From positions 1 through 42,971 of the forward strand of contig JAUIFG010000009.1 in NCBI GenBank assembly GCA_030429445.1: DNA of 42,971 nt, written 5' to 3'. This DNA comes from a bacterium (lineage in GTDB: Bacteria > Patescibacteriota > Saccharimonadia > Saccharimonadales > Saccharimonadaceae). The position numbers and the translations under genes were made by a program. Positions 27,833 to 42,971 of the stretch are shown here, piece by piece. Position 1 is the first letter of the stretch; each line of letters opens with the position of its first letter. A model generated the notes under the pieces. It saw only the letters and a program-made list of their open reading frames with translations. It ran no database searches and was not told the DNA's origin.

Positions 27833-27864
27833 AAAAAAACAGCCTCAGAATGAGGCTGTTTTTG
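27833..27864. terminator. Bidirectional intrinsic terminator between rpsT and holA
   Basis: ACAGCCTCA (27839-27847), loop GAA, TGAGGCTGT (27851-27859): a perfect 9-bp stem flanked by seven A on the left and five T on the right, so it works in both directions. It overlaps the last codons and stop of holA. Confidence 0.9.
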
Positions 27865-28753
27865 TAAGGGTCTTTTCAACTAAAAGCCAGGGGTCAATGG
27901 CACTCGATTTCATTTCTCTATCAGTATCAGCGAATAGCTTTGTCATTTTTTGCACATCTTTCTTGCCAAACTTTTTGGCATACGGTGCTAGCTTACCAAG
28001 TGCATAGGGGTGGGTACCGATATCCGTGGCTACCTCGCTCGGTTTTTTGTCCGCCACTACCAATGTCGCTAGCTGTACAACCTGCCCCGAGAGCAAACCA
28101 AACGTCCTATACGGGTCTTCTGTACGTTCAAGTATCTGAATCATTTCGTGAACTTTTTTAACATCACCACGCAATGCACAATCAAAGAGATTAAAAACGT
28201 TTTCAGTTGGATTTGCAATAATAGTGCGCCCTATAACATCGGGAGTTACCTCATCAAGAATGGACAGTTTTTCGAGTGCATGAAAGAGTAACCACTGATC
28301 TAAGCCAACGCGCTCGACCAATAACTGAATACACTTTTTATCAATTGTTATATTCTGTCGTTTCGCCTCGTCAGCAACCCACTTCTCGGCAATAAATGTA
28401 TCCCTATCACCCCAAGCTAAAAATGTTTTTATTTCGGTATTCTTTTGTAAATCCTTATATGTTTTTGTTCGCTTGTCGGGCTTTGTCTCTACTAACACCA
28501 AATGTACATCATCACTCACGCGTGTTATCCAATCAGGCAAAGTCTCCCATATTCTCTGATTCTCAGAGACATCCTTAATAATGACAAGGCGTTCATTCGC
28601 AAACAACGTTCCGCCCTGTAACAAATCGGGTAACTGCGCTACTTCCAAGTTACTTCCCTCAAACTTTTCAGTAACTCCATCAAAACTTCGGGCAATCTGA
28701 TTGATTGCCCGTGTTATTTCAAAACTATTATTTCCCGTCAGTACTGTAATCAT
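27845..28753 (-). CDS. holA: DNA polymerase III subunit delta
   Basis: From ATG 28753 the protein has 302 residues and starts MITVLTGNNSFEI, typical of HolA (fold of a clamp-loader AAA+ subunit lacking ATPase motifs). Recognisable parts: LLQGGTLFANERLVIIKDV, DWITRVSDDVHLVLVE, LVERVGLDQWLLFHALEKL and the C-terminal collar domain with FNLFDCALRGD and FGLLSGQVVQLATL. It opens the sliding clamp in the clamp loader. The frame extends 11 codons into mutM, but that part has no support. TAGAAT ends 7 bases before ATG. The last five codons lie inside a terminator hairpin. Confidence 0.92.
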   Translation of the reverse strand: MITVLTGNNSFEITRAINQIARSFDGVTEKFEGSNLEVAQLPDLLQGGTLFANERLVIIKDVSENQRIWETLPDWITRVSDDVHLVLVETKPDKRTKTYKDLQKNTEIKTFLAWGDRDTFIAEKWVADEAKRQNITIDKKCIQLLVERVGLDQWLLFHALEKLSILDEVTPDVIGRTIIANPTENVFNLFDCALRGDVKKVHEMIQILERTEDPYRTFGLLSGQVVQLATLVVADKKPSEVATDIGTHPYALGKLAPYAKKFGKKDVQKMTKLFADTDREMKSSAIDPWLLVEKTLTKTASF

Positions 28754-28758
28754 TGATA

Positions 28759-29631
28759 CTATTCTAACACCTGACAATGTGGGCAAGTATGCGTTCCTCG
28801 CCCAGCAGCTCGTGTTTTAATAATTGTTGTTCCGCAACGCGAGCAAGGTTGCCCTTCGCGCCGAAATACACGAGCAAAATCAATATAACTTCCCTTTCTA
28901 CCCTCTGCGTTCACATAGTTCCTATCAGTACTTCCACCTTTTTCAATTGCCAGATTCATAACATTACGAAGTTCTGTGTACAATTTTTTAAATTCTTTTT
29001 TTGTCAGTGATTCAACGCGCCGAGAGGGATGTATCTTTGCACCCCATAACGACTCATCGGCATAGATATTACCTACACCAGCAATCACTGTTTGATCCAA
29101 TAGCGCTGCTTTTATCGTTGTTTTTTGCCGACGCAAAAACCGCTCAGCAAACTGATCAGCAGTAAAGTCTGCCTCCAGCGGCTCGGGACCAACGCGACGC
29201 ATGAAATCAATATTTGGCACCTCAACGGTTGGCATTAAACGCACCCAACCAAACTTTCGCTGATCATTAAAGTATAGATGTGAATTATCAGTAAATGTAA
29301 ACGTCACACGAGTTGACTTGTCCGGCAATTTGCCAACTAGTGAATCATTCGGGTGGCCAGCTCCAAATGCAACTGCCTCGGCTCGAAACACCAACTGCCC
29401 CGTCATCTTTAGATGAATAACCAAGGTGTATTGTGTCGACAAGTCAATGAGTAAAACTTTTGCTCGACGACGTACTGTAATTATTTTTGCACCAATGAGA
29501 AACTGACGTATATCACTGTCCTCATTTGGAAAACTCTTTGGATTGTCATGTTTGACACCCCTTACCTTTCGCCCAACAATTAACTCCATCAACCCACGTC
29601 GAACCGTTTCAACCTCTGGCAGTTCAGGCAT
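28759..29631 (-). CDS. mutM: Formamidopyrimidine-DNA glycosylase
   Basis: A 290-residue Fpg that excises 8-oxoguanine and FaPy lesions and nicks abasic sites. N-terminal catalytic PELPEVETVRRGL (Pro1 nucleophile, Glu2 after Met removal), VIHLKMTGQL, the helix-two-turn-helix with AGVGNIYADESLWGAKIHPSR, and a C-terminal zinc finger with CSRC and CPHC are all intact. Its start overlaps the HAD gene stop by 8 bases, so they are coupled. It sits in a DNA repair/replication run with holA, polA and, elsewhere in the window, udg. Confidence 0.97.
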   Translation of the reverse strand: MPELPEVETVRRGLMELIVGRKVRGVKHDNPKSFPNEDSDIRQFLIGAKIITVRRRAKVLLIDLSTQYTLVIHLKMTGQLVFRAEAVAFGAGHPNDSLVGKLPDKSTRVTFTFTDNSHLYFNDQRKFGWVRLMPTVEVPNIDFMRRVGPEPLEADFTADQFAERFLRRQKTTIKAALLDQTVIAGVGNIYADESLWGAKIHPSRRVESLTKKEFKKLYTELRNVMNLAIEKGGSTDRNYVNAEGRKGSYIDFARVFRREGQPCSRCGTTIIKTRAAGRGTHTCPHCQVLE

Positions 29632-41080: not shown

Positions 41081-41482
41081 CTAACTCTTTTTATCCAAAC
41101 GATCCAACTTGAATATATGCACGACCCAATAAATAGCTAGTATCGTCGCAAAGAGTGTGATAATCGCCGACAATGCTGCTCCCCATGCAAAATCAGCTTG
41201 TCGTCCCCATAGATCAACATGCCATACGTTTGATTCTAATCGTCCCTGTGAACCAACAATGAACCGTACCAAAGGGGTAATAAAACTCTCAACAAGCGTC
41301 TTGACTGTCGCACCAACAGAAGCACCAATCGCCAAACCAACCGCCATACCGACGACGCCGTGGCTACGGATAAAATCAATGAACGCTATCGTTTGATTTT
41401 TTGATATATCCCCTGCTTTGCTTTTTGCTTTTTTTGCCCTTTCCCTAGCTCTTGCTACCCTTGTTGCTTCATCTTCCATCAT
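41081..41482 (-). CDS. mscL: Large-conductance mechanosensitive channel MscL
   Basis: A 133-residue MscL. A charged, basic N-terminus (1-33) is longer than usual; TM1 (VVGMAVGLAIGASVGATVKTLVESFITPL) has the small-residue gate, a periplasmic loop spans 75-98, and TM2 (AALSAIITLFATILAIYWVVHI) is followed by a short basic tail. It acts as an emergency osmotic valve. GGGAG lies upstream, so it is translated from a leader. Two adjacent ATGs are possible starts. Confidence 0.93.
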   Translation of the reverse strand: MMEDEATRVARARERAKKAKSKAGDISKNQTIAFIDFIRSHGVVGMAVGLAIGASVGATVKTLVESFITPLVRFIVGSQGRLESNVWHVDLWGRQADFAWGAALSAIITLFATILAIYWVVHIFKLDRLDKKS

Positions 41483-41527
41483 TATTCTCCCTGTTATCTA
41501 CTATTGTCATTCTACCTGAATTTATAA

Positions 41528-41690
41528 GTGGCTGGAAGGAAGTTAATTTTCCTACCAGCCACTATAGCGAGAGGCCCTGTTCAGGTGTCGCTATACGCAT
41601 ACTCATTGCCAGGATCGCTGTCCAACAGTATGCAGGTACGACCTCCCCAAAAAACAAAATCTCGCCGGTTTGGCGAGTTAGTTTTTTGGT
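41528..41690 (+). ncRNA. Candidate structured small RNA (orientation uncertain)
   Basis: Consecutive stems: GTGGCTGG/CCAGCCAC (41528-41535, 41555-41562) with an inner AGGAA/TTCCT; TATAGCGA/TCGCTATA (41563-41570, 41588-41595); GCATACT/AGTATGC (41597-41603, 41627-41633); AGGT/ACCT with a 3-base loop (41634-41644); then a terminator stem with a T tract. All four main stems are perfect. The order fits a ~160-base RNA on the plus strand ending at the terminator, but the promoter is weak; on the minus strand the same stems would form the mscL leader. I match no known RNA family. Confidence 0.45.
41651..41690. terminator. Bidirectional intrinsic terminator
   Basis: CTCGCC (41661-41666), loop GGTTT, GGCGAG (41672-41677), preceded by an A-rich tract and followed by TTAGTTTTTT. 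It would end argS transcription from one side and the candidate RNA from the other. Confidence 0.85.
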
Positions 41691-41807
41691 TTGGTTGGTT
41701 TTACACAAAAACTTAGCTCGCCGAAGCATCACCAATAATCACGAGAATGAGCCCTCGAGCGTCGATGATTTGGCGTGAAGCTATTGCTTTCATGTACCCC
41801 TAGATTA

Positions 41808-42971
41808 CTACATCTTTTCTGGAGCGACAATCCCCAAAATGCTTAATCCTGCCTTCAAAACATCGGCATACAGCGCTACCAACCCAACACGATGCCGCTC
41901 ATGGTCACTACCAATTACCTGATTCTTTTCATAATAGCGATTGAACTCTTGGGCTAGTTCGAATAAATAAGTGCAGACATGGTGTGGTTCAAGCGACAGC
42001 ATAGCCCGTTCGACTACCTCATGATATTCGCCAAGTTTTCGCACCAACGCCCGATCCTCGTCCCTAACTTCCTTTGGAGACTCGACTGTTCCATCGATTT
42101 TTTCCAATATGCTGCACGCACGCGCATGTGCATACTGCAAATAACTACCGGTGTTACCCGTCAAGCTAACCGCATCATTTACATCAAATATGACATCGCT
42201 ACCAATTTTTACCTTGAGGAATTGATAACGAAGTGCACCCGCTATGATTTCGTCAGTCGGCTTGCCGTTACGCGCCTCTATGGCATCCTTGAATTGATCA
42301 AACAACCAACCAATCTCAACAATGTCACCGTCACGACTGCTCATCTTGCCAGTCGTTAATTTTACAAGTCCAGTTGGAATGTTCACCGTTACGCCCTTTA
42401 ATGCGGGCATGCATAGTTCTGCCGCTGCAATAACTCCCTTAAAGTAGGCTCTTTGTTCGTCACCCGTCACAACATAGCTTTTCTTGGCATGAAAGTGCTC
42501 GTTTTTGAGTACCATCAACCCCAGATCACGCGCGCCATATAGACCATTACCGTTACTAGCAACAAATGCATTATCAAACGAACCATATTCGCTACCTTTG
42601 AACACTAGTGCACCATCCGATTCCTGAAAAACATCCGGTACATGTTCTTTGACAATTGGCACGCCACGCATATCAGCATCACTCTCCAAGAATCGCTTTT
42701 CAACCGGTATATTACCGAGCCGAGCGACAATTTTATCTATTTGTTCAAAGCTCCATGCCTTGCACATATCATATACTTGAGTATAAATATCCGATTCAGG
42801 CTCGAAGGATTGTTTTGCTAATGTATCAATTTCGGCTTTTGCAGCTTCATCTTCCTTGTAGGCTTTTGACCCCTCTATGTACATCTTTGACATAAAAGCA
42901 TTGCGTTCGTCTTTTGGAATCGCTTCAAGCTTGGTAATATCACCGTCAACGTAACGCAACAGGCTATACAT
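41808..42971 (-). CDS. argS: Arginyl-tRNA synthetase (partial, N-terminus off the window)
   Basis: The last 387 residues of a class I synthetase that charges tRNA-Arg. Visible: VKEHVPDVFQESDGALVFKG, a KMSKS-like TTGKMSSRDGDIV, VNDAVSLTGNTGSYLQYAHARACSI, and the C-terminal DALR anticodon-binding domain (LEPHHVCTYLFELAQEFNRYYEKNQV), ending LGIVAPEKM. The N-terminal additional domain and the HIGH motif lie beyond base 42971; the leading Met here is internal. Confidence 0.96.
   Translation of the reverse strand: MYSLLRYVDGDITKLEAIPKDERNAFMSKMYIEGSKAYKEDEAAKAEIDTLAKQSFEPESDIYTQVYDMCKAWSFEQIDKIVARLGNIPVEKRFLESDADMRGVPIVKEHVPDVFQESDGALVFKGSEYGSFDNAFVASNGNGLYGARDLGLMVLKNEHFHAKKSYVVTGDEQRAYFKGVIAAAELCMPALKGVTVNIPTGLVKLTTGKMSSRDGDIVEIGWLFDQFKDAIEARNGKPTDEIIAGALRYQFLKVKIGSDVIFDVNDAVSLTGNTGSYLQYAHARACSILEKIDGTVESPKEVRDEDRALVRKLGEYHEVVERAMLSLEPHHVCTYLFELAQEFNRYYEKNQVIGSDHERHRVGLVALYADVLKAGLSILGIVAPEKM

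Follow-up and report, generated by a model that had tools for sequence, protein, structure and literature searches.

A probable Leu/Ile/Val leader-peptide attenuator between argS and mscL in one family of Saccharibacteria

Anatomy of the argS-mscL element

The minus strand between argS and mscL in a 42,971-nucleotide stretch of a Saccharibacteria genome (contig JAUIFG010000009.1; the whole stretch is called the window here) probably encodes a ribosome-mediated transcription attenuator together with its readthrough RNA. A first-pass annotation had drawn attention to a cluster of hairpins at 41528-41690 and had offered two readings, a plus-strand small RNA of about 160 bases or a minus-strand leader before mscL. 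Our analysis supports the second: read on the minus strand in the order argS to mscL, the hairpins would make up the distal half of a leader-peptide transcription attenuator, and the interval annotated at first omits the key part, namely the leader ORF and the antiterminator at 41713-41793. The window's relatives among named records are without exception Saccharibacteria/TM7. Its argS, mscL and msrB are minus-strand genes, and the intergenic region is read from that strand too. The features, from argS to mscL, are the following.

41802-41830, minus strand: promoter-like site in the end of argS, TTGTCG, 17 nt, TAATCT, then 8 nt to the leader ATG (consensus only)
41793-41713, minus strand: predicted leader peptide ORF, MKAIASRQIIDARGLILVIIGDASAS and stop, 26 codons, probably leaderless
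41734-41751, minus strand: candidate regulatory codons, codons 15-20, L-I-L-V-I-I (CTC ATT CTC GTG ATT ATT)
41717-41722, minus strand: segment A (GGCGAG), antiterminator 5' arm in the last leader codons
41672-41677, minus strand: segment B (CTCGCC), arm common to antiterminator and terminator
41661-41666, minus strand: segment C (GGCGAG), terminator 3' arm
41649-41660, minus strand: T tract ATTTTGTTTTTT, terminator tail
41647-41689: terminator, usable on both strands
41634-41644: fourth 'hairpin', 4 bp only
41597-41633, minus strand: hairpin P2, 7-bp perfect outer stem; position and sequence differ between relatives
41563-41595, minus strand: hairpin P3, 8-bp perfect stem with a 17-nt loop CACCTGAACAGGGCCTC (loop 41571-41587)
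41527-41563, minus strand: long hairpin P4, covarying compound stem with 14 of 15 arm positions paired; adjoins the mscL promoter-like site on its upstream side
41509-41514, minus strand: mscL -10-like hexamer TAGAAT (consensus only)
41081-41482, minus strand: mscL, the nearest downstream gene in the window genome

The region folds well below chance at -76.7 kcal/mol, with a z of -5.7 for the plus strand and of -5.5 for the minus, and none of 200 shuffles folded equally low. Four hairpins had been reported, and they were found at the place given, including the long compound stem; because the fourth consists of 4 bp, the region holds fewer 7-8 bp perfect stems than had been counted. The bidirectional terminator was confirmed, and it is the terminator of the attenuator. 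The stem density had also been taken as unique in the window, which a folding scan of 476 tiles contradicts: tile 41491 and a coding stretch at 28531 both had z -4.7. This second site (28441-28800), where the predicted RNA fold is exceptionally stable (z about -4.7), lies within the minus-strand coding stretch 27845-28786, possibly encoding the DNA polymerase III delta subunit as judged by sequence, and had no significant match in Rfam.

As in the first-pass annotation, no known RNA could be matched. The Rfam scan of the whole window at gathering thresholds returned no T-box, riboswitch or other RNA, and with permissive filters the region had chance-level matches only, none below E 0.05. The Trp_leader model (RF00513) scored 16.7 bits in the region against a cut-off of 41. 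A plasmid search likewise gave no match.

Segments A, B and C as a candidate switch

An intrinsic terminator with the sequence CTCGCC-AAACC-GGCGAG-ATTTTGTTTTTT is present downstream of the leader ORF. Segments A and C are both GGCGAG and would therefore compete for the 5' arm B, so that mutually exclusive A:B and B:C pairings, overlapping the leader ORF, exist as a potential of the sequence. The A:B pairing is present in the local fold of 41661-41730. In the predicted fold of the full leader without a ribosome, A is paired with an upstream segment and the terminator is formed; the default state of the attenuator is therefore uncertain. In the window leader, an upstream segment masking A in the absence of a ribosome would set the untranslated state to OFF, as in trp. 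By eye, such a trp-like region 1 was not found outside the window's genus.

The sequence comparisons show the anatomy, its conservation and its restriction to one locus; from these we infer the following course of events. Transcription would begin at the end of argS, and its first codons would be those of the leader peptide. Ribosomes that pass the Leu/Ile/Val codons and reach the stop codon would cover A, B would then pair with C, and RNA polymerase would halt at 41649. A ribosome that lingers or stalls on the Leu/Ile/Val run would leave A free to pair with B, and the terminator could not form. Readthrough would then continue across P2-P4 in the direction of mscL; in most relatives it would also cross a small gene, here called X. 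Leu/Ile/Val tRNA charging may be the signal, or else inhibition of the ribosome; the mscL locus may respond in this way to starvation or to translation stress, X being the probable regulator in relatives.

The promoter-like site in the end of argS was not listed by a stricter promoter scan. If TTGTCG-17-TAATCT is the promoter, the leader mRNA would be nearly leaderless. A TANNNT hexamer stands 6-8 nt before the ATG in every leader of the window's genus, and in many other genera a hexamer of this type lies 12-26 nt upstream of the leader ATG. The leader ORF is open in all members of the window's genus that carry the element, and comparison of relatives showed that both the ORF and its frame are conserved; examples of the peptides from relatives are MKTITYNQNLIRDILIVMPSAS, MSNACKQHDLILLVMFDASSAG, MGIISRQNSIISGLIIVIIDSSAS and MQRFSEQIMCLVLVMFAVPSA.

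The Leu/Ile/Val codon run

The seven-codon stretch before A was compared in the three frames of the leaders. In frame 0, 75% of the residues are Leu, Ile or Val and there are no stops; in the other two frames the share is 31% and 8%, with stops at 14% and 10%. Codon choice within the stretch is narrow as well (ATT 40/44, CTC 26/42 and GTG 21/29), and this skew differs from the usage of the window's genes with Fisher p values of about 1e-8 or lower, which are optimistic as the sequences are related. The textbook value for the ribosome footprint is about 16 nt counted from the first base of the P-site codon. With this footprint, the last A-site codon that would leave A free in the window leader is codon 20, the end of the L-I-L-V-I-I run; elsewhere the leader's run extends 0 to 3 codons past the corresponding codon. 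The predicted regulatory codons stand at the distance from A that starvation-stalled attenuation requires.

Distribution and locus specificity

The comparison covered the DNA upstream of mscL at 73 loci, almost all of them in one GTDB family (L007 and L081 are one contig). The finder asked for a terminator whose 3' arm recurs upstream, together with an overlapping ORF of 16-32 codons. It was built after the first examples had been seen, so the A:B:C complementarity is partly there by construction, and the off-locus counts serve as the control. There were 22 matches in 55 kb of argS-mscL DNA (22 of the 73 mscL loci), compared with one in 461 kb elsewhere (one in 203 kb of the same strand and none in 258 kb of the other strand); in the 43-kb window it found the attenuator element alone. 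The other loci did not pass the finder; short or rearranged gaps are frequent among the loci, and a few leaders that it missed are readable by eye (for example L003, L033, L042, L048 and L055). In some genera (loci L044, L064, L065 and L080) the argS-mscL gap holds other ORFs of roughly 130-390 codons and no attenuator.

Strict patterns were also run over 198 genomes each, with 14 matches for the CCTCGGC type and six for the GGCGAG type. All 20 occur once per genome and always upstream of mscL, and reversing the patterns as a control yielded no match. In a sample drawn from across the class, no copy of the strict CCTCGGC pattern turned up beyond the family. The letters of A, B and C differ by group (GGCGAG, CCTCGGC or CTCGGCGGT), and the repeat-and-complement relation is kept, a relation that the finder demands.

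Genes downstream of the terminator and the signal

In the window genome the nearest gene downstream is mscL, which seems to have a promoter of its own. In most relatives with the leader (for example L003, L033, L050, L055 and L056), gene X, of about 70-125 codons, lies 3' of the terminator. The X proteins form divergent, fast-evolving families that are alike mainly in a helix-turn-helix-like core. Sampled X proteins had no significant family in Pfam or PHROGs, and the A1 profile had none among PDB sequences. The AlphaFold model of one X was poor, with a mean pLDDT of 52.5; the PDB structures matching it were mostly winged-helix, none of them significantly. No A1-type gene X was found anywhere in the window's genome or in viral contigs. 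In 17 of 25 cases, which exceeds shuffles, the ribosome-binding site of X has a complement of 8-15 nt located 20-115 nt past the X stop, as if translation of X were closed by long-range Shine-Dalgarno pairing.

IlvD is absent from the window genome and 12 relatives and present in 14 of 14 control genomes. The element is therefore not a classical biosynthetic attenuator, and its output would not be biosynthesis. An ilv/leu biosynthesis attenuator was rejected on these grounds, the downstream genes being mscL or X and IlvD being absent in the 13 genomes.

Within the same attenuator architecture, the leader may sense ribosome inhibition (antibiotic arrest or translation stress) in place of branched-chain supply, with X as a stress regulator; we regard this as possible, though the less likely choice. 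Without IlvD, synthesis of branched-chain amino acids is not to be expected in this organism, most element-bearing relatives encode a small winged-helix-like protein downstream, and drug-sensing upstream ORFs are already known (PMC12121999), all of which would suit such a sensor. However, what the leaders have in common is the Leu/Ile/Val run and not one arrest motif, and the run is placed as stalling by starvation would require.

Hairpins P2-P4 in genomes lacking gene X

Four genomes, those of the window and three congeners (G000, G007, G008 and G009), have an argS-mscL interval with P2, P3 and P4 and without gene X. The P3 loop is almost invariant among them, with 17 nt made up of CACCTRAACAGGGYC and two variable bases. 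Four of five counted pairs in the P3 stem are changed on both sides with 100% pairing, and in P4 four pairs are changed on both sides with 100% of cells paired, as counted on the arms alone with the loop substituted by GAAA. Because only four sequences are available, this covariation is suggestive, not conclusive. P2 varies in both sequence and position among relatives. At two variable stem positions in P3/P4 the minus-strand pair is G-U, which the plus strand would turn into an A-C mismatch.

The exact P3 loop occurs in four of the 198 genomes, at the argS-mscL locus only, and in genomes sharing P3 argS is down to 65% and mscL down to 47% identical to that of the window. One-mismatch matches were no commoner than in controls, and P3 as a widespread motif was discarded. 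In the four X-less genomes another small ORF could be picked by eye, with its end in the P3 loop; it was rejected since its starts and sequences disagree. A further member of the genus (L015, G002) has the leader and attenuator, and neither gene X nor the P3 loop; its long hairpin (GTTAGATGAAGTAGCATA...) is a different one.

P2-P4 may be a stand-alone regulatory RNA that is set free by processing, or by termination ahead of mscL, and that replaces the lost X. We put this forward tentatively and consider it compatible with an attenuator upstream. The nearly unchanging loop and the fully paired covarying stem, kept despite such divergence of argS and mscL, and the restriction of the exact loop to this locus point in its direction; against it stand the small number of sequences, a loop without a known function and the absence of a T tract after P4. 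Without this tract, readthrough should enter mscL.

Readings without an attenuator

It is improbable that the terminator simply belongs to argS, with an unrelated structured spacer behind it and the short ORF incidental. Terminators are expected after argS and the one at 41647-41689 could work in both directions, but the leader frame and the Leu/Ile/Val run are conserved across genera, A is repeated inside the ORF, and the element occurs in one copy per genome linked to mscL. A plus-strand or otherwise independent small RNA of about 160 nt, to which the hairpins and the plus-usable terminator might point, is very improbable: it is the minus strand that carries the conserved leader ORF, the antiterminator and the promoter-like site, the promoter scan gave no plus-strand promoter-like site in the region, the G-U pairs of P3/P4 are compatible with the minus strand only, and on the plus strand the terminator would end nothing conserved.

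Discussion

The closest described case to the proposed attenuator is the ilvBNC leader of C. glutamicum, or ilvB-II (PMC10272879, PMC11857589). Both have a short uORF rich in Ile/Leu/Val codons, overlapping antiterminator and terminator stems, and one copy per genome at one locus. In contrast to ilvB-II, the present element has mscL and a winged-helix-like gene downstream and no ilv genes, IlvD is absent, the uORF is probably leaderless, and no Rfam match was obtained. In the trp operon attenuator (RF00513), too, the position of the ribosome chooses between antiterminator and terminator; the element differs from it in lacking a Trp codon run and in its score (16.7 bits against 41).

The uORFs of WhiB7/WblC sense translation stress. 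The same has been described for the topAI uORF of E. coli (PMC12121999). In these systems, as would be the case here, a small regulator or stress gene is under uORF control. However, gene X is not a WhiB protein, given that the sampled X proteins had no significant Pfam family, and it is absent from the window genome.

We found no report of the element in the open-access literature. The logic of attenuation is known from ilv and trp, and the mscL-linked element in Saccharibacteria is apparently undescribed. A wider picture, which we offer as speculation, is that in one Saccharibacteria family a branched-chain-codon attenuator of an auxotrophic episymbiont may serve as a sensor of nutrients or host contact, connected with the mscL locus, not with biosynthesis, and also with a DNA-binding regulator that evolves fast and whose ribosome-binding site would be closed by a distant 3' anti-Shine-Dalgarno stretch; in the window's subclade, a new RNA whose 17-nt loop is conserved may have taken the regulator's place. 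According to a 2024 review, the mechanisms of differentiation in Patescibacteria are unknown and translation control is likely to be key (PMC11665869). If our reading is true, attenuation would be employed here outside biosynthesis, and a compact sensor of ribosome progress over Leu/Ile/Val codons would provide a testable handle on how host-dependent bacteria detect starvation or contact with the host.
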